DNA of 14,967 nt from Zoogloeaceae bacterium (GTDB taxonomy: Bacteria; Pseudomonadota; Gammaproteobacteria; Burkholderiales; Rhodocyclaceae). Below the pieces are notes generated by a model that did not search any database, was not told where the DNA came from, and saw only the letters and a program-made list of their open reading frames with translations. The stretch's first letter is position 1; each line of letters begins with the position of its first letter. A program made the translations under genes and the position numbers. Shown here piece by piece: positions 1 through 11,424 of the stretch. Location of the stretch: assembly GCA_031273145.1 (NCBI GenBank), contig JAISSL010000109.1, positions 1 through 14,967 of the forward strand, given 5' to 3'.

Positions 1-433
1 CAACATTCGCGCAGACGCTTCTGCCAGAAAGCTGGCGGAGAGTTTCGGCGTGGATATTCGCTACTACAACATCATCTATGAAGCTGTGGATGAAGTGAAG
101 GCGGCTCTTTCCGGGATGTTGGCGCCGGAGAAGCGCGAAATCATCATCGGTCAGGTTGAGGTGCGGCAGGTTTTCAGGATTTCCAAGATCGGCGCGATTG
201 CCGGTTGTCAGGTGCAGGATGGCGTCATCCGCCGCAACGCCCGTGTCCGCCTGTTGCGTGATAACGTCATGATCTGGGATGGCGAACTGGCTTCCCTGAA
301 GCATTACAAGGACGACGCCAAGGAAGTCAAGGCGGGTTCCGACTGCGGCTTATCCCTCAAAAACTTCAACGACATCCAGGAAGGAGACCTGATGGAAGCC
401 TACGAGATTCAGGAAATCGCGCGTAGCTTGTAG
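1..433 (+). CDS. infB: Translation initiation factor IF-2, C-terminal fragment
   Basis: The reading frame is open from base 2 and stops at TAG 431-433, so only the last about 143 residues are present; the gene begins upstream of the window. IF-2 is the GTPase that brings fMet-tRNA to the 30S subunit and promotes subunit joining. The visible part is domain IV: it opens with [20 protein letters not shown], followed by [16 protein letters not shown], and later has the GxxAGCQVxDGVIRRN and [11 protein letters not shown] stretches typical of the tRNA-binding C2 beta-barrel. It ends [14 protein letters not shown], a normal IF-2 C-terminus, so the gene is not truncated at its 3' end. In most proteobacteria rbfA and truB follow; here the next gene is dinD, 44 bp away. 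No terminator hairpin is visible after the stop. Confidence 0.97.
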
Positions 434-467
434 CCTGTATTTTTCAACCCAAACAACCGGATCGAAC

Positions 468-472
468 GGAAG
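468..472 (+). promoter_or_regulatory. Ribosome binding site of dinD
   Basis: GGAAG lies 5 nt before ATG 478 and supports that start. The 44-bp gap to infB holds no convincing promoter, so dinD may be read from upstream transcription. Confidence 0.5.
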
Positions 473-477
473 TTGAA

Positions 478-1356
478 ATGACGAGCAAAACAACCGAACT
501 TGGTATCCGAGGGCGATCTTTCGAAAGCCTGAAGCAATTGAACGAGCATGGCGCGGAGTACTGGAGCGCCCGCGACCTGCAACCCTTGCTGGGATACAGC
601 CAGTGGCGGCGTTTTGAGCAGGCGGTTGAGCGCGCGATAAGTTCTTGTAAACAATCAGGAAATCCATCTGAAAACCATTTTGCCGGCGCCGGCAAAATGG
701 TTGACATCGGGTCGGGAAGCGTCCGGGATGTTGATGACTACCACCTCTCCCGCTTTGCCTGCTACCTGATTGCCCAGAATGGTGATCCACGCAAGCCGGA
801 AATCGCGCAAGCCCAAAAATACTTTGCGATCCAGACCAGGCGGCAGGAATTGAGCGACCAGGCTGCTGCCGACCAAGAGCGGCTGGAACTGCGTAAACAA
901 ACCTCTGAAGAATTCAAGGCGCTTTCCGGGGCGGCGCAGGATGCGGGGGTGCAAAGCCGGATGTTCGGCGTGTTTCATGACGCAGGTTACAAGGGCTTGT
1001 ATGGTGGCTTGGGGCGCGATGCCATCAAGCAACGCAAGGCCATTCCTGAAAAGGATCATCTGCTTGACCGCATGAATGCGACTGAGTTAGCCGCCAATCA
1101 ATTTCGCATGACCCAGACCCGCGACAAACTGGAACGAGAACGCATACATGGGCAAGCCGAGGCTATCCAGACCCATGAACAGGTGGGGCGCGAAGTGCGT
1201 CAGGCGATTCAGCGCATCGGCGGCACTTTGCCCGAAGATATTCCACCAGCCGAGCACATCAAGGAAGTTGAGAAGCGGCTGAAATTGGCAACGCCAAAAC
1301 TGGCGTTGGGCGGCAAGGATGCCAAGGGGTTACTTGGAAAACAGGATAATGGTTAA
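478..1356 (+). CDS. dinD: DNA damage-inducible protein D (DinD) family
   Basis: A 292-residue protein of the DinD family. Residues 14-60 hold the family's N-terminal block (SFESLKQLNEHGAEYWSARD, then LLGYSQWRRFEQAVERA). Residues 87-121 hold the diagnostic DDYHLSRFACYLIAQNGDPR plus AQAQKYFAIQTRRQE. The second half is charged and probably helical. In E. coli, DinD is SOS-induced and reported to inhibit RecA filament activity; other DinD-like genes occur as accessory genes in phages and restriction islands, where their role is unknown. Here it precedes a type III restriction-modification operon on the same strand. No complete LexA box is visible upstream, so damage induction is not supported by sequence. 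A 30-bp perfect palindrome (673-702) encodes residues 66-75. The family call is firm; the function in this setting is inference. Confidence 0.9.
   Translation: MTSKTTELGIRGRSFESLKQLNEHGAEYWSARDLQPLLGYSQWRRFEQAVERAISSCKQSGNPSENHFAGAGKMVDIGSGSVRDVDDYHLSRFACYLIAQNGDPRKPEIAQAQKYFAIQTRRQELSDQAAADQERLELRKQTSEEFKALSGAAQDAGVQSRMFGVFHDAGYKGLYGGLGRDAIKQRKAIPEKDHLLDRMNATELAANQFRMTQTRDKLERERIHGQAEAIQTHEQVGREVRQAIQRIGGTLPEDIPPAEHIKEVEKRLKLATPKLALGGKDAKGLLGKQDNG
673..702. repeat. 30-bp perfect palindrome inside dinD
   Basis: The arm AACCATTTTGCCGGC is followed directly by its exact reverse complement with no spacer. It covers exactly ten codons, residues 66-75 of DinD (NHFAGAGKMV). In mRNA it could fold into a long GC-centred hairpin; in DNA it could extrude or bind a dimeric protein. 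Confidence 0.95.
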
Positions 1357-1406
1357 AAAAGCGGTTTTGTTCTGCTTCTTTCATCAATTCTGTAAGACTA
1401 TTGAAA

Positions 1407-3224
1407 ATGGCAACCAAACAAAAACTCGAACTTAGCTGGGTTGGGAAGGAGAAGCGACCCAGGGTGGAGCCGCGGATTTTGTTGGAGGATGCGGGGAGGT
1501 CGTATCACGCGAAGCATCGGGTGACGGGGCGGGATGTCTTCGATAACCTGTTGATTTTTGGAGATAATTTGTTGGCGCTGAAGGCGTTGGAGCAGGAGTT
1601 TACGGGGAAGGTAAAGTGCGTCTACATTGACCCGCCATTCAATACGCAGCAGGCATTCGAACATTACGATGATGGATATGAGCATTCCATCTGGCTTGGG
1701 CTTATTCGAGACCGTATCGAATCACTTCGGCGATTGCTGTCTGATGATGGAACGCTGTTTGTTCACATTGATGACAATGAGCTTGGCTACTTGATCGTGC
1801 TGCTTGACGAAATATTCGGGCGTGCTAACCGGGTTGCTGTCGTATCTTTCAAACAGGGATCGGCTACTGGTCATAAGGCCATCAATCCGGGTGTTGTCAG
1901 TACTACGAACTTCATTTTGATCTACGCAAAGAGCAAAACCGTGTGGTCGCCCAATCGTGTTTTTACAGCACGAACCGAGCGAGACAAGCGATATGGACAA
2001 TTTATCGATAATTTCGATGAACCATATCGCAAATGGCAATTCACGACGTTAACAAAAGCATTTGCTCAGAGCATTAACTTGCCAGAAAAAGGAATCAAGA
2101 AGGCCATCGGTGATGGCTTTGAGGAACATCTATCGGATTTCGTCATGAAAAATGCTGACCGTGTGGTTCGTCTGGCTCGACCAGATTACAACGCGGTGAG
2201 CAGTGAAGCTAGGGAAATGATCGACAAGTCAAAGGTTCAGCATAATGAAGTATTGTTGTTGAAGCGAGATGCTCATCCAAACATGTACTTTGTGAATGGA
2301 GAGAGAATCTTGTTCTACTTGGACAAGCTCAAGCTCATTGATGGTCAATATGTAGCCGGAGAACCACTAACAAGCCTTTGGGACGACATCCTATCCAATA
2401 ACCTGCACAACGAGGGTGGTGTCGAATTCCCCAAAGGCAAAAAACCCGAAGCACTTATCAAACGCTGCTTCGATTTGGCTACGAAGCCGGGCGACATCGT
2501 CTTGGACTCCTTCGCCGGTTCCGGCACTACCGGCGCGGTCGCGCACAAGATGGGGCGGCGCTGGATCATGGTCGAACTGGGCGAACACTGTCATACCCAC
2601 ATCATTCCGCGTCTCAAAAAAGTCATTGATGGTGAGGACAGGGGCGGCGTTACGGATGCCGTCGGCTGGCAGGGCGGCGGCGGGTTTCGCTACTACCGGC
2701 TTGCGCCCACGCTGATCGTCAACGACCGCTGGGGCAATCCGGTCATCAACCCGGAATACAATGCCGCGCAACTTTCCGAGGCACTGGCAAAGCTGGAAGG
2801 GTTTGTGTACGCGCCCTCGGAAACGCGCTGGTGGCAGCATGGTCATTCGAGTGAGCGCGATTTTATTTATGTGACCACGCAAAATCTTTCCGCCGGGCAG
2901 TTGCAGGCGCTCTCGGACGAAGTGGGTAGCGAGCAAAGCCTTCTGGTCTGGTGCTCGGCATTCCACGGCATCACTGCCGACCAGGCTGCAGAACGCTGGC
3001 CAAATCTGACGCTGAAAAAAATCCCGAAGGCAGTGCTGGCACGCTGCGAGTGGGGGCACGACGATTACAGCCTGAACGTGGAAAATCTGCCGATGGCAGA
3101 ACCTTCTCCCCCGGCCCCTCTCCCGGTCTTGCAGACGGCAATAGCGGGAGAGGGGAAAAAGGGGGGCCGCGTCAAAAATACTGAGCCGGATTTGTTTGGA
3201 GAGGTTGAGGAGGATGCACCATGA
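1407..3224 (+). CDS. mod: Type III restriction-modification system DNA methyltransferase (Mod)
   Basis: Mod transfers a methyl group from S-adenosylmethionine to adenine in one strand of an asymmetric site, and in type III systems it supplies sequence recognition for the Res complex. The 605-residue protein shows beta-class order: catalytic IDPPFNTQ at residues 74-81, then the central target-recognition region, then the cofactor motif LDSFAGSGTTGA with F369. DPPF replaces the commoner DPPY, which is seen in other members. ATG 1407 is chosen over TTG 1401 because it gives MATKQKLELSW; neither has a strong ribosome site. The segment from about 1650 to 2440 is much AT-richer than the rest, suggesting exchange of the specificity domain. 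The C-terminal linker contains an in-frame GC-rich inverted repeat (3102-3166). The stop overlaps rhuM by 4 bp. The recognition sequence cannot be read from the gene. Confidence 0.95.
   Translation: MATKQKLELSWVGKEKRPRVEPRILLEDAGRSYHAKHRVTGRDVFDNLLIFGDNLLALKALEQEFTGKVKCVYIDPPFNTQQAFEHYDDGYEHSIWLGLIRDRIESLRRLLSDDGTLFVHIDDNELGYLIVLLDEIFGRANRVAVVSFKQGSATGHKAINPGVVSTTNFILIYAKSKTVWSPNRVFTARTERDKRYGQFIDNFDEPYRKWQFTTLTKAFAQSINLPEKGIKKAIGDGFEEHLSDFVMKNADRVVRLARPDYNAVSSEAREMIDKSKVQHNEVLLLKRDAHPNMYFVNGERILFYLDKLKLIDGQYVAGEPLTSLWDDILSNNLHNEGGVEFPKGKKPEALIKRCFDLATKPGDIVLDSFAGSGTTGAVAHKMGRRWIMVELGEHCHTHIIPRLKKVIDGEDRGGVTDAVGWQGGGGFRYYRLAPTLIVNDRWGNPVINPEYNAAQLSEALAKLEGFVYAPSETRWWQHGHSSERDFIYVTTQNLSAGQLQALSDEVGSEQSLLVWCSAFHGITADQAAERWPNLTLKKIPKAVLARCEWGHDDYSLNVENLPMAEPSPPAPLPVLQTAIAGEGKKGGRVKNTEPDLFGEVEEDAP
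3102..3166. repeat. GC-rich inverted repeat embedded in the mod reading frame
   Basis: Perfect 11-bp arms CCCCTCTCCCG (3115-3125) and CGGGAGAGGGG (3145-3155) are flanked by matching C-rich and G-rich runs. A small inner hairpin GTCT-TGC-AGAC lies at 3126-3136. The type resembles dispersed repeats commonly seen between proteobacterial genes. Here it is translated in frame as SPPAPLPVLQTAIAGEGKKG, a low-complexity insert between the Mod body and its last residues. Confidence 0.8.
3209..3213 (+). promoter_or_regulatory. Ribosome binding site of rhuM
   Basis: GGAGG lies 7 nt before ATG 3221, inside the 3' end of mod. This strong site fixes the rhuM start and fits translational coupling through the ATGA overlap. 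Confidence 0.7.
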
Positions 3225-4276
3225 GCCAAGGCGAGTTTCTGCTCTATCAGACTGAGGACGCTCAAACCCGCGTTCAACTGCGCTTGCAGGATGAAACGGT
3301 CTGGGTGACGCAAAAGCAACTGGCAGAGTTGTATCAAGTCAGTGTTCCAACCATCAACGGACACTTGCGGACAGTATTTCAGGATGGGGAGCTTTCGGCA
3401 GATCGAACTATTCGGAAATTCCGAATAGTTGCCCGCGAAGCCGCGCGGGAAGTGGAACGGCTTGTTGATCATTACAATCTGGAAGTCATTCTGCATGTTG
3501 GATACCGTGTGCGCTCTCATCGCGGCGCACAGTTTCGTCGCTGGGCCACGGAGCAGTTGAAAAGTTATCTGGAAAAAGGGTTTTTGCTGGATGACGAACG
3601 CTTCAAGGGTAGCCAGGACAGCGGCTATTTTGAAGAACTGCTGGCGCGCATCCGCGACATTCGTTCCTCGGAAAAGGAGTTCTGGCGCAAGGTGTTGGAC
3701 ATTTACGCCACCAGCATTGATTACGACCCAAACACTGAAGCCGCGCGGCAGTTCTTCGCCACGGTGCAGAACAAGATGCACTGGGCGGCGCACGGTCACA
3801 CCGCCGCCGAACTGATTGCGTTGCGGGCGGACGCGCAGATGCCGCACATGGGGTTGACCAGTTGGACGGGAGCGACCAAAGGCGCTCCTGTACGCAAGGC
3901 GGACATCGGCATTGCCAAGAACTATCTCAACGCCGAAGAACTGGAAACACTCAATCGAATCGTCACGGCCTATATCGAAGTGGCCGAGTTGCAGGCTCGC
4001 GCGCAGCACGCAATGACGATGCAGGACTGGGCGATTGAACTGGATAACTTCCTGCGCATGACACGCAAGGACATCCTGACCCATGCAGGGAAGGTTTCCG
4101 CCGAAGCGGCACGGGAGAAGGCAGAGCAGGCGTATACGCAATACCAGCAGCAAACACGCAATTTGCCGTCACAAGTGGAAAAAGACTTTGAGGTCACTAT
4201 CGCGCAGCCGGTGAAGCGGATCGAAAAAAACCGAAAGAAAAATCCGCAAGATCAGCACAAAAAGGAGAAAAAATGA
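3221..4276 (+). CDS. rhuM: RhuM family protein inside the type III RM operon
   Basis: A 351-residue member of the RhuM (virulence protein RhuM) family. Residues 27-57 (VWVTQKQLAELYQVSVPTIN then HLRTVFQDGEL) form the family's helix-turn-helix-like N-terminus. Residues 63-110 carry TIRKFRIV, HYNLEVILHVGYRVRS and RGAQFRRWATEQL, which identify the family. The rest is helical; the C-terminal tail is lysine-rich (ending KKNPQDQHKKEKK) and comes from an A-rich segment. RhuM was named in a Salmonella pathogenicity island; its biochemical role is unsettled, and homologues often sit within type I restriction loci. Here it overlaps mod by 4 bp and res by 4 bp, so all three are probably translated in a coupled way and at similar levels. 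Control of, or partnership with, the restriction enzyme is inference. A 25-bp palindrome (3406-3430) encodes residues 63-70. Confidence 0.92.
   Translation: MSQGEFLLYQTEDAQTRVQLRLQDETVWVTQKQLAELYQVSVPTINGHLRTVFQDGELSADRTIRKFRIVAREAAREVERLVDHYNLEVILHVGYRVRSHRGAQFRRWATEQLKSYLEKGFLLDDERFKGSQDSGYFEELLARIRDIRSSEKEFWRKVLDIYATSIDYDPNTEAARQFFATVQNKMHWAAHGHTAAELIALRADAQMPHMGLTSWTGATKGAPVRKADIGIAKNYLNAEELETLNRIVTAYIEVAELQARAQHAMTMQDWAIELDNFLRMTRKDILTHAGKVSAEAAREKAEQAYTQYQQQTRNLPSQVEKDFEVTIAQPVKRIEKNRKKNPQDQHKKEKK
3406..3430. repeat. 25-bp perfect palindrome inside rhuM
   Basis: Arms AACTATTCGGAA (3406-3417) and TTCCGAATAGTT (3419-3430) are exact reverse complements around a single A. The segment encodes TIRKFRIV, residues 63-70. 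It starts 185 nt into the gene, nearly the same offset as the palindrome in dinD. Confidence 0.95.
4264..4267 (+). promoter_or_regulatory. Ribosome binding site of res
   Basis: GGAG lies 5 nt before ATG 4273, within the last codons of rhuM. It supports the res start and coupled translation through the ATGA overlap. Confidence 0.65.
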
Positions 4277-6876
4277 GTGCTCGTGTATTGCATCACATCA
4301 TAGGTCGTCTTTCGCTGCGTCCGCCGCAGGCGGAATCGCTGGCGCGTCTGAAACAGGCGCTGGATGCCGCGCCGGAAATGCTGGCGCATGAGCGTGATGT
4401 TGCGGCCATCCTCTCCACCCTGAAAGCCGAATTCCCCACACTCGACGATTTCGAGCGCGACTTTCCGTCGCTCTGTTTCGCGCTGGCAACGGGCGTCGGC
4501 AAGACCCGCCTGATGGGCGCGTTTATCGCGTATCTGCATCTGGCGCACGGCATCCATAACTTTTTCGTGCTTGCGCCCAATCTGACCATCTATAACAAGC
4601 TCATCACCGACTTTACACGCAACACGCCAAAGTACGTTTTCAAGGGCATCGCCGAATTCGCGCAAAAAACGCCGCTCCTCATCACCGGCGACAACTACGA
4701 CCAGACTGGCGCGGCGGTGGATGATGCTCCATCAAACCTGCCCCATGACGTGCGGATCAACATTTTCAACATCTCCAAAATCAATTCCGAAGTGCGCGGC
4801 GGCAAGGAGCCGCGCATCAAGCGGATGCAGGAAGTGCTGGGCAACAGCTATTTCAATCATCTGGCGAATCTGCCTGACCTCGTGCTGTTGATGGATGAAT
4901 CGCACCGCTACCGCGCCAGCGCCGGCGTGCGCGCCATCAATGAATTAAAACCGCTCTTCGGCCTGGAAGTCACGGCAACGCCATTCGTGGAATCGAATAA
5001 AGGGCCGACGCCATTCAAAAACGTGGTGATGGATTATCCATTGGCATTGGCGCTGAGGGATGGTTTCGTCAAGGAACCTGCCGCCGTCACCCAACGCAAT
5101 TTCGATGCCAAGGCTCATACGCCCGAAGAAATCGAAAAGATCAAACTGGAAGATGGCGTGCGGATGCACGAGAGCACGAAAGTGAAACTCACCACCTATG
5201 CCCGTGAGAACAACGTTCCGTCCGTCAAACCTTTCATGCTCGTCATCGCCCGCGATACGACCCACGCCGGTCAACTTCTGGCGTTGCTGGAGTCGAAAAC
5301 CTTCTACGAAGGACGCTACCGGGGCAAGGTCATTCAGGTGGATTCCAGCCGCACCGGCGCGGAAGAAGAAGCCATGATTACTCGTCTGTTGGCCGTAGAA
5401 AGTATGGACGAGCCGACCGAGATCGTGATTCACGTCAACATGCTCAAAGAAGGCTGGGACGTGACCAATCTCTACACCATCGTGCCGCTGCGCGCCGCCA
5501 ACGCGCGCACCTTGATCGAACAATCCATCGGGCGCGGCCTGCGTCTGCCTTATGGCAGGCGCACCGGCGTGGCGGCAGTGGATCGCCTGAACATCATCGC
5601 CCATGACAAGTTTCAGGAAATCATCGACGAAGCCAACCGGGGCGATTCGCCGATTCGCTTGCAACAGATCATTCTCGATGCGCCCGGCGCAAATGACAGG
5701 AAAGACAGCGTGCGAATTGAGCCGGGCGCGGCGGTTCGCCTTGGGCTTATGGAGCATCCGGCATCCATTGCACCCTACGGCGAAGAAGCTGTGCCAACGC
5801 CGGTCTTTACCACGGAAGCCGAAAAACAGGCGGCGCGCGTGGTAATGGAGGTGATCGGTACGTTTGAGGCGAGACGCAATGTTGCGCCGACCAGTCGCGC
5901 ATTGCTCAAACCGGAAGTGCAAAAGGAGATTTTGGCAGAAGTCGCGGAGCGTTTGCGTCCGGTGCAGGGCACGCTGCTGGCGGGTATGGACGAATCGGCG
6001 TCGACGCTTGATTTGTCCGCCATCGTCGCCAAAACCACGGAAATCGTCGCGCAGCAGACCATCGACATTCCGCGCATCGCCGTAGTTCCCAAGGGCGAAG
6101 TCACAACAGGTTTTCGCCCATTCACGCTGGATGTGCGCCAGCTCCACCTGCAACCCGGTGAACGTGAGATTGTCGGCCAGATGCTGCATAGCAACGAGCA
6201 GTTCACGCTGTCCGCCGAAACCGGCCTGAAAGAACAACGCCCGGAGGATGCCATCGTTCACGCGCTGGTGGACTTCGACGACATTGATTACCCCACTCAC
6301 GCCGATCTGCTCTACGACCTTGCGGGTCAGATGGTGCGGCATTTGCGGAGCTATCTGTCTGAAGAGGACGTGGCAAACGTTCTGAGTGGACAAGGCAAGG
6401 TCATTGCCCGCGAAATCCACGCGCAGATGATGGCGCATTTCTGGGAGGACGCCAGCGCCTACGAAGTGCGGGTCAGTCGCGGTTTCACGGAACTGAAGCC
6501 CTGCAACTACACGGTTGCGGCGGGACAAGCGCCGCGCCATTACCGCGAAACCATTGAGGACGTGGGCAATATCCGACAGATGCTGTTCGGCGGCTTCAAG
6601 CGATGCCTGTATCCGCTCCAGAAATTCGATTCGGATTCGGAACGCCGATTTTCGATCATCCTCGAACGCGACGCCCTGAAGTGGATGAAACCCGCAAAGG
6701 GGCAGTTCCAGATGTACTACAAGCTCGGCGCGGAACAACCGGAATACATCCCCGATTTTGTGGCGGAAACGGATGCGCTGATGCTCATGGCGGAAACCAA
6801 GAAGCGGGGCGACCTGAATAGCGATGAGGTGCAGGCCAAGGCTGCCGCCGCCGTACAGTGGTGCAAACATGCCTAG
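4273..6876 (+). CDS. res: Type III restriction endonuclease subunit (Res), C-terminally truncated by an amber stop
   Basis: Res is the ATP-dependent DNA translocase and nuclease of type III systems and works in complex with Mod. The 867-residue product has a superfamily 2 motor: Walker A ATGVGKT at 72-78, DESH at 208-211 (motif II), VTATP at 233-237 (motif III) and QSIGRGLR at 417-424 (motif VI). Near the C-terminus, IPDF (D828) and AETKK (E841, K843) form a PD-(E)xK nuclease site, so the catalytic residues are present. TAG at 6874-6876 ends the frame right after VQWCKHA. The same frame continues for 37 sensible codons to TGA 6988-6990, so the family-like C-terminus has been cut off. Either the enzyme tolerates the loss, the codon is read through at some rate, or restriction is disabled while Mod stays active. 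The start overlaps rhuM (ATGA). Confidence 0.93.
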   Translation: MSARVLHHIIGRLSLRPPQAESLARLKQALDAAPEMLAHERDVAAILSTLKAEFPTLDDFERDFPSLCFALATGVGKTRLMGAFIAYLHLAHGIHNFFVLAPNLTIYNKLITDFTRNTPKYVFKGIAEFAQKTPLLITGDNYDQTGAAVDDAPSNLPHDVRINIFNISKINSEVRGGKEPRIKRMQEVLGNSYFNHLANLPDLVLLMDESHRYRASAGVRAINELKPLFGLEVTATPFVESNKGPTPFKNVVMDYPLALALRDGFVKEPAAVTQRNFDAKAHTPEEIEKIKLEDGVRMHESTKVKLTTYARENNVPSVKPFMLVIARDTTHAGQLLALLESKTFYEGRYRGKVIQVDSSRTGAEEEAMITRLLAVESMDEPTEIVIHVNMLKEGWDVTNLYTIVPLRAANARTLIEQSIGRGLRLPYGRRTGVAAVDRLNIIAHDKFQEIIDEANRGDSPIRLQQIILDAPGANDRKDSVRIEPGAAVRLGLMEHPASIAPYGEEAVPTPVFTTEAEKQAARVVMEVIGTFEARRNVAPTSRALLKPEVQKEILAEVAERLRPVQGTLLAGMDESASTLDLSAIVAKTTEIVAQQTIDIPRIAVVPKGEVTTGFRPFTLDVRQLHLQPGEREIVGQMLHSNEQFTLSAETGLKEQRPEDAIVHALVDFDDIDYPTHADLLYDLAGQMVRHLRSYLSEEDVANVLSGQGKVIAREIHAQMMAHFWEDASAYEVRVSRGFTELKPCNYTVAAGQAPRHYRETIEDVGNIRQMLFGGFKRCLYPLQKFDSDSERRFSIILERDALKWMKPAKGQFQMYYKLGAEQPEYIPDFVAETDALMLMAETKKRGDLNSDEVQAKAAAAVQWCKHA

Positions 6877-7125: not shown

Positions 7126-7236
7126 ATGGATTTTTTTGCTGCCCAGGAACAAGCCCGGAAAAAAACCCGCTGGCTGATGCTCTGGTTCGCGCTAGCGGTG
7201 CTGTGCATCGTCGCGCTGGCGCACCTGTTCGCCATG
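7126..7236 (+). repeat. 5' block shared by the two M48 genes, copy 1
   Basis: This block aligns without gaps to 9352-9462. It includes a 42-bp identical run (7195-7236 and 9421-9462), and most other differences are synonymous. The sequences become unalignable immediately afterwards. Confidence 0.85.
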
Positions 7237-9336
7237 TTGGCACTGCATGTGTGGGATTATCTTTTTTCTGATCATTCCATGATGGGTTTTATGGCGTTAG
7301 TGATGGGGCTTGCCATGTTCCTGGCCATGCTCTTTATTTTTCTGCTCTTGATGTACATGCTGTTCAGCAAGCCGCGCAAGAGGCAGGGACTGTTTAAAGG
7401 CAATGCGGAAAGGAAAAGGTCTTCCCTTGCTTCTTTCCTTGTATGGTTGCTATTGCTGGGGCCGCTCTTGCTGGGGTTTGCTTATATGGTCTACTTCGCA
7501 TTGGAGGCTTTTCCCTTCTTCGTTGACCAAATCCTGAAACTTTTTGAAGTAACCGATCTGGATACCAATTTTGGACATGCCTTGCGGTTGTGGGATAACC
7601 CGTTCGCTTTCGGTTTTTCCCTGCTTGTCGGCGTCTGCATTGTGGTGGCAACGCTATACAAGATGTGGCAAATCGCCCGGCAGGGCGGCGCCCTGATTGC
7701 GAAGCAACTGGGCGGACGCAGAATCAGGCGCGATACTTCCGACCCGGCAGAAAAGCGTCTGTTGAATGTGATAGATGAAATGGCGATTGCCGCAGGCATC
7801 CCTGCGCCGGTTGCCTTTGTACTCCCTATGGAAACCGGCCTGAACGCCTTTGCAGCCGGACTTTCCACGCGCGATAACGTGATTGCCGTCACCCAGGGCA
7901 TTCTGACCGCCATGAACCGGGATGAGTTACAAGGCATCATCGCGCATGAAATCAGCCATATCGCGCATGGGGATAGTCGCCTCAATCTCCGGCTGATCGG
8001 CATTCTGTTCGGTATTTACGGCCTCACGCTTTTGGGGCGCGGCTTGATACAGGGGGGCGGGTATATGTTGATTCTCACGCTGGCGGCGGGCGTCGTGTTG
8101 TGCGCCATTGGCTCTGTTGGGAAGTTTTTTGGCGGGATGATTCAGGCGACCGCTTCCCGTGAGCGCGAATATCTGGCAGATGCCGCCGCCGTACAATTCA
8201 CCCGCAGTTCCGCTGGACTCATTTCCGCGCTCAACAAATTGCGGGCTTTTGGTTCCCAAATCAAGCATCCGCAAGCCCTTGCCGCCAGCCATCTCTTTTT
8301 CGGCGCAAGCGAAAAACCTTCCCGTTTTTTGACTTCCCTGTTTGCGACGCATCCGCCGTTGGAAGCGCGCATTCAGCGTCTTGGCGGCAAGACGCTGCCT
8401 CTGTCGAAAATAGCGCCTCAATCCATAGACCTTGTCACAGTTGAAGATGACCGTCCGCAGATTTTGATGAACAATCTCCCTGCGGCCTTGCCCGCTGCGC
8501 CTGCCGCTACGGTTGCAAGGGACGGTATTGCGGAAGACCTTGCGCCCGATGGCGTCGCTCAGGCGCACAACCTGCTCGCCAGCCTGCCGGAAAGCCTGCG
8601 ACAAGCGGCATCGTCCGTTGCGGGCGCGGAGGGCATCGTCTACGGCCTGTTTCTCTCCATTCCAGAGATCAAACCTGGGCTGCTGTCCCGGCAGGAAAAA
8701 CTGATCCCCCCTGCGGCACTGCCTGTGGCGAAGAAACTCAACTGGTGGCTGCATTCGCAACCGGAAGGGGCGCGTTATCGTCTCGTCTGGCTGGACCTGG
8801 TCATGCCTACCTTGCGCGGCGCATCACAAGACGAATGCCGGGAATTGCTCATGATTGTGAAACCCCTGATTCAAGCCGATGAATATGTCTGTCCCGGTGA
8901 AATTGCCCTGTACAGCATTCTGCAAAATACCTTGTTGCCTGCCAGACGGTCAGGCGAGCAGAGCGCATCGCTTTGGGGATTTTGGGGACAACAGAATCGG
9001 AGTGCTGGCAGGCTGCTGTGGCTCATTGCCCGTGCCGGACATGAAGATGGGAAGATGGCCGAGGCCGCTTATCAGGCGGCGATAGCACATTTCCCTGAAT
9101 ATGAGGAGATATCTTTTCTGAACAAGGGCGGGCTTTCCCTCGATGCGGCTTCCAAAGCATTCGGGCATCTTGCCCTTGCCGCGCCATCGTACCGGAAAAA
9201 GTTTCTGGAAGCGTGCGCGGTTGCCGCGCAACACGATGGCAAGATTACGCCGGTAGAAAATGAACTACTCCGCGCCTTCGCGCAAAGCCTCGATTGCGCC
9301 GCGCCGCTTGTTACCTTGCCATCGGCGAACCAATAA
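7126..9336 (+). CDS. Membrane M48-family (HtpX-like) metalloprotease, copy 1
   Basis: A 736-residue predicted inner-membrane zinc protease. The N-terminus has four hydrophobic segments (about 17-38, 52-80, 102-128, 160-177). The peptidase follows: HEISH at 274-278 supplies two zinc ligands and the catalytic glutamate, and EYLAD at 348-352 the third ligand (E348). Two more hydrophobic stretches lie between them. A soluble region of about 320 residues follows, with an Ala/Pro-rich linker at about 430-475. It ends with a helical domain (FLEACAVAAQHDGKITPVEN then ELLRAFAQSL) that resembles a TerB-like fold, an uncertain match. HtpX-type proteases handle membrane-protein quality control; this one is more than twice the usual HtpX length, so its substrate may differ. 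Copy 2 follows after 15 bp, probably in one transcript. The start is supported by GGAAGG, 9 nt upstream. Confidence 0.88.
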   Translation: MDFFAAQEQARKKTRWLMLWFALAVLCIVALAHLFAMLALHVWDYLFSDHSMMGFMALVMGLAMFLAMLFIFLLLMYMLFSKPRKRQGLFKGNAERKRSSLASFLVWLLLLGPLLLGFAYMVYFALEAFPFFVDQILKLFEVTDLDTNFGHALRLWDNPFAFGFSLLVGVCIVVATLYKMWQIARQGGALIAKQLGGRRIRRDTSDPAEKRLLNVIDEMAIAAGIPAPVAFVLPMETGLNAFAAGLSTRDNVIAVTQGILTAMNRDELQGIIAHEISHIAHGDSRLNLRLIGILFGIYGLTLLGRGLIQGGGYMLILTLAAGVVLCAIGSVGKFFGGMIQATASREREYLADAAAVQFTRSSAGLISALNKLRAFGSQIKHPQALAASHLFFGASEKPSRFLTSLFATHPPLEARIQRLGGKTLPLSKIAPQSIDLVTVEDDRPQILMNNLPAALPAAPAATVARDGIAEDLAPDGVAQAHNLLASLPESLRQAASSVAGAEGIVYGLFLSIPEIKPGLLSRQEKLIPPAALPVAKKLNWWLHSQPEGARYRLVWLDLVMPTLRGASQDECRELLMIVKPLIQADEYVCPGEIALYSILQNTLLPARRSGEQSASLWGFWGQQNRSAGRLLWLIARAGHEDGKMAEAAYQAAIAHFPEYEEISFLNKGGLSLDAASKAFGHLALAAPSYRKKFLEACAVAAQHDGKITPVENELLRAFAQSLDCAAPLVTLPSANQ
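9190..9312 (+). repeat. 3' block shared by the two M48 genes, copy 1
   Basis: This block aligns without gaps to 11299-11421 with 6 mismatches in 123 bp counted by eye. It encodes the C-terminal YRKKFLEACAVAAQHDGKIT segment and the following residues. Confidence 0.85.
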
Positions 9337-9351: not shown

Positions 9352-9462
9352 ATGGATTTTTTTGCGGCTCAGGAACAGGCGCGGAAGAAAACCCGCTGGC
9401 TGGTGCTCTGGTTTGCGCTGGCGGTGCTGTGCATCGTCGCGCTGGCGCACCTGTTCGCCATG
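9352..9462 (+). repeat. 5' block shared by the two M48 genes, copy 2
   Basis: This is the partner of 7126-7236 and encodes the start MDFFAAQEQARKKTRW and the first membrane segment. Confidence 0.85.
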
Positions 9463-11424
9463 CTGGTGTTTTCTAAGGGGGGGTTTTCTTTTGTTTTTGA
9501 GATGAAATTTATGCTTTCGATTCTAATGTTTTTTACGTTTTGCATGGGGTTTTTCCTCATACTTATCATTCTGTGGTTGACCTACAAATTCTGTCAGTCG
9601 GTTCTTAACCAATGGCGATTGGCGCCGTCTTATTTTTTCTCCATGCTGGGAATGTATTTGATTGGGGTGATATTGTTGATTATTTCTGCCTACGTATTTT
9701 TTGTCCTTGGCAACGAAGGCTTCGCCGCGATAGCCGAGTTAAACGAAAGTGTCGACCATGCCAAGACTGCCGATCATGCTAATGTCCTTCAGCTTTCCGA
9801 AACGGAAATGCCGGGGAACCCATCTGTATATTTCTTTTCGTCGTGGGATAACCCGTATGTTTTTGGCTTTTCCCTGGTTGTTGGCATCGGTATTGTGGCG
9901 GCTTCCCTGTACAAGATGCGGCAAATCGCGCGCCAGGGCGGCATCCTGATTGTGGAGCAACTGGGCGGGCGCAGGATCAACCGGGATACCGACAACCTGA
10001 TGGAAAAACGCCTGCTGAATGTGATGGACGAAATGGCCATTGCCGCAGGCATCCCAACGCCGACTGCCTTTGTGTTGCCCGAAGAGCATGGCCTGAACGC
10101 CCTTGCCGCCGGACTTTCCACCCATGATAGCGTGATTGCCGTCACCCGTGGTTTGCTGGAAGTCATGAACCGGGATGAGCTGCAAGGCATTATCGCGCAC
10201 GAAATCAGCCATATCGTGAATGGAGATACCCGCCTCAATCTGAAACTGATCGGCATTCTGTTCGGCATCAACGGGGTCTCGCTTTCCGGGCGTTCCATGC
10301 TGAAAGCGATGCTTGGCACCTGGTTTTTCACGCTGGTGGTGGGTTCCATACTGTGCGCCATTGGCTATATCGGCCTTTGCCTTGGACGGATGATTCAGTC
10401 CGCAGTTTCCCGTGAGCGCGAATATATGGCGGATGCTGTTGCCCTGCAATTTACCCGCAACCCTGCCGGACTCGTTTCCGCGCTCAATCTGTTGCGATTC
10501 TCCGGTTCACAAATTGGGCATCCGCAAGCCATTGCCGTCAGTCACCTCTTTTTCGGGGCGAGTGAAAAGCCTTCTGCCATTTTGACTTCCCTGTTTGCAA
10601 CCCATCCACCGATAGAGGAACGCATCCAGCGTCTTGGCGGCGCGTCGCTGCCTTCGCTGCCGGAGAGCGTCACCCACGCGCAAACCCTGCTTGCCAATCT
10701 GCCGGAGACTTTGCGACAAACGGCGCGGAACGTCACGGGCGCAAAAGGCATTGTGTGCGGGCTTTTTCTCTCCAACGCGCGCCCCCATATCCTGCACGAG
10801 TTGGAAGATCTGCTTCCCCCTGACGTACTCCCGGTGACACAGGAACTCTACCATTGGCTATCCACGCAACCGGGACGAGGGACGCATTACCGCCTCATCT
10901 GGCTGGACCTCGCTCTGCCCGCCTTGCTCGAAGCGACAAAGCGCGAACGCAAGGAACTGCTCGGCTGGATAGCGTACCTGGTTCCCGAAGATGAACGGGC
11001 AAGCCCCAGTGAATGCGCCCTTTACAGCATTCTGCGAAGTGTCTCGCTGCCCCCTTCGGAGCGTCATGCCCGCAGGTTGCGCCCGGATTGGGTGAATTGG
11101 GAGATGTCCCGACTGCTGGTGTTCATTGCCTATGCGGGTCATGCGGATGTAGAGATGGCAAAGGCCGCTTATCAGGCGGCCATCGCCCGTTCGCCTGCCA
11201 GTCATCACTACCAACAAGAGCCTTTTCCAGTCAGGGTGGAATTTTCCTTGAAGACGATCTCCCAGATATTTTCGCGCCTTGCCATGACCGAGCCGCTCTA
11301 CCGGAAAAAGTTTCTGGAAGCGTGCGCGATTGCCGCGCAACACGATGGCAAGATTACCCCGGTGGAAAATGAGCTACTCCGCGCCTTCGCGCAAAGCCTC
11401 GATTGCCCCGCGCCGCTGGTTTGA
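9352..11424 (+). CDS. Membrane M48-family (HtpX-like) metalloprotease, copy 2
   Basis: A 690-residue paralogue of the preceding gene with the same layout. It has hydrophobic segments at about 17-39, 54-78, 95-118 and 170-187, HEISH at 283-287, the third zinc ligand E357 in EYMAD, two further membrane segments, then a long soluble C-terminal region ending FLEACAIAAQHDGKITPVEN and ELLRAFAQSLDCPAPLV. All catalytic residues are intact, so both copies may be active. It differs in the membrane segments 2-3. It also has an extra loop (about 121-165, containing NESVDHAKTADHAN and others) before segment 4, and it lacks the roughly 45-residue Ala/Pro linker found after the peptidase in copy 1. The TM2-3 region is AT-richer with many Phe, Leu and Ile codons. 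Proximity suggests co-expression and perhaps a heteromeric protease, which is inference. Confidence 0.88.
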   Translation: MDFFAAQEQARKKTRWLVLWFALAVLCIVALAHLFAMLVFSKGGFSFVFEMKFMLSILMFFTFCMGFFLILIILWLTYKFCQSVLNQWRLAPSYFFSMLGMYLIGVILLIISAYVFFVLGNEGFAAIAELNESVDHAKTADHANVLQLSETEMPGNPSVYFFSSWDNPYVFGFSLVVGIGIVAASLYKMRQIARQGGILIVEQLGGRRINRDTDNLMEKRLLNVMDEMAIAAGIPTPTAFVLPEEHGLNALAAGLSTHDSVIAVTRGLLEVMNRDELQGIIAHEISHIVNGDTRLNLKLIGILFGINGVSLSGRSMLKAMLGTWFFTLVVGSILCAIGYIGLCLGRMIQSAVSREREYMADAVALQFTRNPAGLVSALNLLRFSGSQIGHPQAIAVSHLFFGASEKPSAILTSLFATHPPIEERIQRLGGASLPSLPESVTHAQTLLANLPETLRQTARNVTGAKGIVCGLFLSNARPHILHELEDLLPPDVLPVTQELYHWLSTQPGRGTHYRLIWLDLALPALLEATKRERKELLGWIAYLVPEDERASPSECALYSILRSVSLPPSERHARRLRPDWVNWEMSRLLVFIAYAGHADVEMAKAAYQAAIARSPASHHYQQEPFPVRVEFSLKTISQIFSRLAMTEPLYRKKFLEACAIAAQHDGKITPVENELLRAFAQSLDCPAPLV
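11299..11421 (+). repeat. 3' block shared by the two M48 genes, copy 2
   Basis: This is the partner of 9190-9312, ending one codon before the stop of copy 2. Confidence 0.85.

Follow-up and report, generated by a model that had tools for sequence, protein, structure and literature searches.

Palindromes inside dinD and rhuM covary with the recognition helices that these genes encode: candidate operators within the genes of their own readers

Introduction

The stretch of DNA considered here (14,967 nt, positions 1 to 14,967 of contig JAISSL010000109.1 in the Zoogloeaceae bacterium assembly GCA_031273145.1; 'the window' in what follows) carries on its plus strand the four genes dinD, type III mod, rhuM and res, in that order, and it raises a simple question: why do two of these genes, dinD and rhuM, each contain a perfect palindrome within the coding sequence, at almost the same distance from the start codon? 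A first, sequence-only reading of the window had suggested three roles for these elements, namely an operator for autoregulation by the encoded proteins, an mRNA hairpin controlling translation or cleavage, and a recombination or target site. The operator appears to be the best of the three, because among homologues the recognition helix of the encoded protein predicts the bases of the palindrome half-site.

Two palindromes at equivalent places

Both the sequence itself and an inverted-repeat scan confirm the perfect palindromes that had been claimed. In dinD (start at 478), positions 673-702 form a 30-bp palindrome without spacer, with 15 of 15 pairs matching, which occupies codons 66-75; in rhuM (start at 3221), positions 3406-3430 form a 25-bp palindrome with a one-base centre and 12 of 12 matching pairs, which occupies codons 63-70 plus one base. 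The rhuM element consists of two 10-bp arms (3406-3415 and 3421-3430); the 5 bp between them show less symmetry in homologues. The distances from start codon to palindrome, 195 nt in dinD and 185 nt in rhuM, are as had been stated, and it was also right that the two sequences are unrelated; their structural position is nevertheless equivalent, since AlphaFold2 models of the two proteins show that the palindrome codes for a large part of the first beta-hairpin strand that follows the recognition helix. Specifically, the DinD model places the recognition helix at residues 43-59 and the next beta-strand at 68-78, part of which is encoded by the palindrome (residues 66-75). No further copy of either palindrome was found at up to 3 mismatches in the genome of the window (1.98 Mb, 86% complete). 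Each is single-copy there, unlike a mobile palindromic repeat with several copies per genome, and a mobile palindrome is rejected on this ground.

Conservation as DNA

Homologues were taken from 398 genomes of the phylum for each of the two families, and were supplemented with 60 further RhuM regions, the best 80 RhuM loci from GTDB species genomes and the best 80 viral-contig loci per family. The aligned set comprises 250 distinct RhuM and 100 distinct DinD stretches, and a palindrome was counted when at least 8 of 10 or at least 9 of 12 pairs matched and the centre was of the expected kind. By this measure it is present in the aligned region of 245 of the 250 RhuM and 89 of the 100 DinD sequences, whose carriers include many bacterial phyla, two archaea and viral contigs; in 229 of the 245 RhuM sequences, codon 43 begins 71 nt before the centre of the palindrome. 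Compensating changes in the two arms frequently alter the encoded amino acids, and the peptides encoded by the RhuM arms are highly diverse (for example RKFR, ANFA, KESL, EESS, NHWL, SILE) while the symmetry persists; the peptide therefore follows the DNA. In E. coli K-12, the palindrome of dinD is clearly the best in the gene, with a score of 12 where the next reaches 6.

Perfect arms are found in 163 of 245 RhuM and 28 of 89 DinD sequences but in only 0.42% and 0.16%, respectively, of draws in which synonymous codons were redrawn, a comparison that somewhat favours the observed side, as the test was limited to rows that pass the palindrome criterion and the centre was optimised on the real sequences and then fixed. 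Similarly, palindromes with perfect arms of at least 10 and a spacer of at most 5 number 213 in 371 kb of RhuM and DinD open reading frames and 73 in 1,345 kb of other DNA of the same loci. Codon redraws and palindrome density together rule out chance and codon bias.

The two sides of a pair also change together over time. When changes of the two sides are counted per branch on a RhuM C-terminal-domain tree of 220 loci, 49 changes at pair k=5 fall on the same branch, out of 50 on the left and 49 on the right. The figures are 45 shared of 46 and 46 at k=6 and 41 shared of 47 and 47 at k=2, with looser coupling at k=4 (53 shared of 74 left and 71 right), k=7 (54 of 76 and 74) and k=8 (15 of 30 and 28). 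The earlier expectations that chance was an unlikely cause and that the palindromes are conserved as DNA are thus borne out in RhuM and DinD homologues alike; the two outcomes named beforehand as speaking against them, free synonymous variation and shuffled codons that do equally well, were both tested and neither occurred.

The recognition helix predicts the half-site

Every RhuM column was scored for its mutual information with the five inner half-site bases. Outside residues 64-69, which are themselves encoded by the palindrome, the top columns are 47, 43, 44, 40, 41, 42 and 46 (3.47 to 1.31 bits), followed by a column at 0.84 bits. In the AlphaFold2 model the helix-turn-helix of RhuM is made of helices 31-38 and 42-54, so that the seven coupled columns correspond to the turn and the start of the second helix. 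Linkage is ruled out as the cause of this association, because residues 48-61, which lie between helix and palindrome and thus closer to the latter, reach at most 0.50 bits.

The same coupling is visible among close relatives, as well as in prediction across distant ones. RhuM pairs that are 80-90% identical elsewhere share 95% of the seven helix residues when they have the same half-site (45 pairs) and 42% when they have different half-sites (51 pairs), although these pairs are not independent of each other. In a leave-one-out prediction over the 245 sequences, restricted to neighbours less than 50% identical, the seven helix residues recover the 5-bp half-site exactly in 69% of cases and at least 4 of 5 bases in 90%. 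Three random column sets are exact in 5-9%, and the closest homologue gives the exact half-site in 9%. When neighbours must be less than 40% identical, the figures are 44% exact versus 0-4%.

A stricter test is offered by 85 RhuM loci that encode R65, R68 and I or V at 64, in which C and T at k=5 are synonymous on both arms. Where residue 43 is R or K, k=5 is C in 37 of 37 loci; where it is any other residue, k=5 is T in 47 of 48, A in the remaining one and C in 0 of 48 (Fisher p = 1e-24 for C against T). The separation holds among 28 representatives less than 60% identical (12/0 versus 0/16, p = 3e-8). In the same 85 loci, residue 47 tracks the base at k=2: all 70 loci with E have G, all 11 with Y have A, and the remaining four are G with G (2), D with T (1) and H with A (1); among the representatives this gives p = 0.001.

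On the C-terminal-domain tree of 79 of these test loci, 22 base changes and 22 residue-class changes all fall on the same branches, but shuffled labels give a mean of 25.9 changes, so this tree tells little about how the N-terminal part descended. The helix-palindrome type is distributed over it in a nearly random way, and the N-terminal specificity block therefore seems to be swapped between proteins or to change very fast. Paralogues within one genome share a half-site in 0 of 29 pairs, versus 7.4% between genomes (p ~0.1, not significant), which is only suggestive of orthogonality between paralogues.

DinD shows the same coupling of helix to half-site, less cleanly than RhuM. When scores are summed over k=4 to 1, the columns outside the palindrome rank as R45 (1.14), Q42 (1.13), Q48 (0.69), R161 (0.62), D86 (0.57) and R44 (0.48). 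The coupling of residue 44 sits at k=5 (0.79), beyond the range of this sum: sequences with R44 all have G there (56 of 56) and those with E44 mostly C (17 of 19), and D42 is accompanied by C at k=6 in 10 of 12. The sequences thus show symmetry at the DNA level, coevolution of helix and half-site and a fixed position for both palindromes.

A putative operator inside the gene of its reader

We consider it probable that an operator within each of the two genes is bound by the protein encoded there, which thereby limits its own operon, probably as a roadblock to transcription. A site in cis that is matched by the DNA-reading residues of the product is the mark of an autoregulatory operator, and such a match is found here, by covariation only. 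Physical binding would involve a DinD or RhuM dimer that sets the recognition helix of its helix-turn-helix onto both arms of its own palindrome, with residues 42, 44, 45 and 48 of DinD and 40-44, 46 and 47 of RhuM specifying about five bp per arm. The bound protein may then stop RNA polymerase about 190-220 nt into its own gene, negative autoregulation by such a roadblock being less certain than the binding. A roadblock in dinD would limit dinD and the mod, rhuM and res genes behind it, and one in rhuM would limit rhuM and res; in the window, RhuM could in this way hold back res after mod, while DinD could hold back the whole cluster.

For RhuM, the genomic context fits the roadblock. Neighbours of RhuM genes lie on the same strand in 117 of 141 cases upstream and 108 of 135 downstream, and 89 of 115 same-strand neighbour frames upstream and 81 of 107 downstream were scanned for families (26 per side, 22 of them under 200 residues, were left out). 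Among the 25 commonest families of each side, methylases come first upstream, with N6_Mtase in 17, HsdM_N in 15 and N6_N4_Mtase in 7 of 89 (ResIII in 2 and Methylase_S in 3), and restriction and specificity families come first downstream, with ResIII in 19, Methylase_S in 13, SWI2_SNF2 in 12 and HSDR_N in 5 of 81. RhuM thus often sits between methylase and restriction genes.

Several observations weigh against this interpretation. Many of the scanned RhuM neighbours belong to families other than restriction-modification, and a site so deep within a gene is unusual for a repressor. Near RhuM genes a second site is no more frequent than expected by chance: 186 loci give 9 matches at up to 5 mismatches, versus 8.7 for control palindromes. 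On the promoter side of these 186 loci, the sole close second site is a near copy of the intragenic site about 275 bp upstream of the palindrome in locus L137, which stands alone at up to 4 of 20 mismatches and is joined by L320 and L150 at 5. Many known operators have less perfectly symmetric arms, so that a further mutational or structural cause may be at work. In DinD, the summed score ranks columns 161 and 86, which are not part of the helix, above residue 44. In the related Bro-N and Rha domains the palindrome sits at the modal codons in only about 41 of 111 distinct Bro-N and 58 of 107 distinct Rha sequences, and roi of phage HK022, a distant relative, is without a palindrome at the equivalent place.

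Finally, 5 distinct RhuM and 11 distinct DinD sequences fail the palindrome criterion. Of the RhuM rows, two (L361 and L165) retain the inner arms, two more (L332 and L338) retain just the left half-site, and L356 retains neither; read by eye, the helices of the first four agree with the helix code. Three of the 11 DinD rows have another kind of centre and 8 score too low. Two further observations concern these and related loci. At L165 a second palindrome lies 5′ of the gene and, again read by eye, is of a type that its own helix does not predict. In the DinD relatives L276, L264 and L273 the palindrome is still there, apparently shifted by several codons along the gene.

Alternative explanations

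The protein may bind its own palindrome for another act, such as silencing a related incoming element, activation, or recruitment of its C-terminal domain to its own locus. All of the coevolution evidence fits this equally well; the families are present in viral contigs, plasmids and candidate defence loci, the type varies almost independently of the tree built from the remainder of the protein, as if specificity had to diversify, and the paralogue counts, although not significant, lean the same way. Autoregulation is, however, the simpler role for a site carried by the gene itself, and another act is regarded as unlikely.

An mRNA hairpin was among the roles suggested at first; it would act on the dinD and rhuM messages through translation, decay or cleavage by RNase III, and both palindromes do fold strongly as RNA (z -3.39 and -2.00). 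Structured RNA is expected to keep its stem through G-U pairs as well, but in the palindromes G.T mismatches are no commoner than A.C: there are 19 G.T, 26 A.C and 37 other mismatches in 171 distinct RhuM palindromes, and 19, 27 and 48 in 74 distinct DinD palindromes. The RhuM pair at k=5, a wobble-wobble pair, is T-A in 152 and C-G in 88 sequences, with no T.G or C.A intermediate among the 245. The two central RhuM pairs are less symmetric (79% and 69%), as would be expected of a dimer site with an unread centre, but a hairpin loop would look alike. Because G-U pairs are not in excess among the mismatches, the symmetry is best read as one maintained in duplex DNA; the mismatch spectrum thus disfavours the hairpin, which moreover leaves the prediction of bases by helix residues unexplained, and which we hold to be very improbable.

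It is similarly improbable that the helix covaries with the palindrome-encoded peptide through a protein contact, the symmetry of the DNA being a by-product or the result of quasi-palindrome correction during replication. The encoded strand does come after the helix in the fold and concerted changes of both arms are common. However, even a C/T difference that is silent in both arms divides according to helix residue 43, correction could match the arms to each other but not to the helix, and redrawing the codons destroys the palindrome.

A recombination or insertion site, or a mobile palindromic element within genes, is scarcely credible: the frequent change of half-site type relative to the C-terminal tree is compatible with exchange of N-terminal blocks, but the palindrome is found as a single genomic copy at a nearly constant place in one gene superfamily, and such an element would predict no match to the recognition helix.

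A wider superfamily

The operator interpretation may extend beyond the two families of the window. In addition to the Bro-N and Rha sequences counted above, the palindrome lies at the modal codons of the domain in about 24 of 29 distinct ORF6N sequences, and at codons 67-68 in 13 of 17 further ORF6N viral loci. RhuM-Fic fusions (L108-L122) carry the same kind of palindrome, the Fic fusion being confirmed in all 4 of the 4 that were tested. With recognition helices assigned by motif, the most strongly coupled columns outside the palindrome include helix positions 36, 37 and 40 in Rha (67 sequences), 44, 45, 48 and 49 in Bro-N (47 sequences) and 37 and 41 in ORF6N (38 sequences). These couplings are noisier, as expected of small sets: ORF6N columns next to the palindrome outrank the helix ones, and in Bro-N several distant columns also score high.

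It seems rather likely, if with somewhat less confidence than for RhuM and DinD themselves, that RhuM, RhuM-Fic, DinD, Bro-N antirepressors, ORF6N and Rha form a whole superfamily with an operator inside its own DNA-binding domain (in RhuM about 70 bp past the recognition-helix codons), so that reader and site travel and change together as one cassette. If this is true, such genes would amount to an open-ended set of orthogonal, self-addressed regulators with a readable helix-to-DNA code, in which protein strands have a sequence dictated by the operator, and which would provide defence clusters and phages with a built-in operon limiter and possibly a silencer of related elements. As a separate observation, the single open frame of locus L405, which has an ORF6N match, carries a RhuM-type palindrome about 190 codons after its start, identical to that of rhuM in the window.

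Relation to known systems

The Roi protein of phage HK022 reportedly binds a site within its own gene, so one case of an own-gene site may be known already. Roi resembles the proteins discussed here in being a DNA-binding protein, of Rha/KilAC type, whose coding sequence reportedly contains its site, but it is a single case, in another family, without a helix-site code; a KilAC domain is present, and the N-terminus aligns to Phage_pRha with a score under that family's cut-off (25.2 versus 29.9 bits). The controller (C) proteins of type II restriction-modification systems are likewise small helix-turn-helix proteins that delay restriction behind methylation, but their sites are in promoters, where RhuM loci have copies of their site no more often than controls, and they belong to another fold family.

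More generally, operators usually lie in promoters and have to be discovered regulator by regulator. The new element would be an autoregulatory operator encoded inside the very domain that reads it, and none of the matches listed from the openly licensed literature describes these palindromes, the helix code or the pattern across the superfamily. For hundreds of phage, restriction-modification and SOS-locus proteins that are poorly understood, the operator could then be read directly off the gene, and the DNA target could be predicted for each protein, E. coli K-12 DinD included. The families also offer a natural data set for the helix-turn-helix recognition code and a case of DNA-binding sites that dictate protein sequence, and the widespread accessory genes RhuM and DinD would, if the proposal is true, gain a concrete function as self-limiting regulators.

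LacI limits itself by a roadblock at the downstream operator O3, which blocks transcription of its own gene (PMC3711431). The likeness lies in a repressor that limits itself via a downstream operator; O3, in contrast, is part of the lac control region, outside the codons of the DNA-binding domain, and is not a self-site that coevolves gene by gene. Fold searches gave Deinococcus DdrC (PDB 8u0g, 7qvb) as the top match, with a root-mean-square deviation of 6.6 to 16 over the chain, followed by low-scoring matches, many of them helix-turn-helix proteins.

Genes of the window and minor observations

The DinD protein scores 385.7 bits against NCBIfam PRK11525 (cut-off 242), which places it in the DinD family, and 41.1 bits against Pfam Bro-N (cut-off 25.6); RhuM scores 366.5 bits against Virulence_RhuM (PF13310; cut-off 33.7) and is a member of that family. 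In PADLOC, dinD corresponds to PDC-S13 and rhuM to PDC-S05. As rhuM overlaps both the stop of mod and the start of res, these three genes probably share one transcript; the number of promoters and terminators predicted in 300-4400 is not above that of shuffled sequence.

Table 1. Coordinates of the features discussed, as positions in the window (strand '.', both strands).
Feature	Position	Strand	Evidence
dinD gene (NF008573), Bro-N type DNA-binding N-terminal domain	478..1356	+	NCBIfam PRK11525; Pfam Bro-N
DinD codons 42-48, start of recognition helix; 42, 44, 45 and 48 covary with the palindrome	601..621	+	mutual information; residue-base tables; model
dinD intragenic palindrome, proposed DinD operator	673..702	.	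inverted-repeat scan; kept in 89/100 distinct homologues
type III mod methyltransferase gene	1401..3224 (TTG 1401 or ATG 1407)	+	Pfam N6_N4_Mtase; PADLOC MTase_III
rhuM gene, overlapping mod stop and res start	3221..4276	+	Pfam Virulence_RhuM; PADLOC PDC-S05
RhuM codons 40-47, turn and start of recognition helix, covarying with the palindrome	3338..3361	+	mutual information; leave-one-out; synonymous-base test; model
rhuM intragenic palindrome, proposed RhuM operator	3406..3430	.	inverted-repeat scan; kept in 245/250 distinct homologues
type III res restriction gene, 3′ of rhuM	4273..6876	+	Pfam ResIII; PADLOC REase_III

Close to the 3′ end of mod, at 3115-3155, there is an inverted repeat of another kind, CCCCTCTCCC...GGGAGAGGGG. 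A similar element is found 5′ of rhuM in the related locus L123 (at about 2649), and also in L051, and it is perhaps a small repeat that was inserted into coding sequence. Further along the window, 7126-9336 and 9352-11424 are tandem similar genes with a common N-terminus which, judged from their open reading frames alone, resemble M48-type membrane peptidases.

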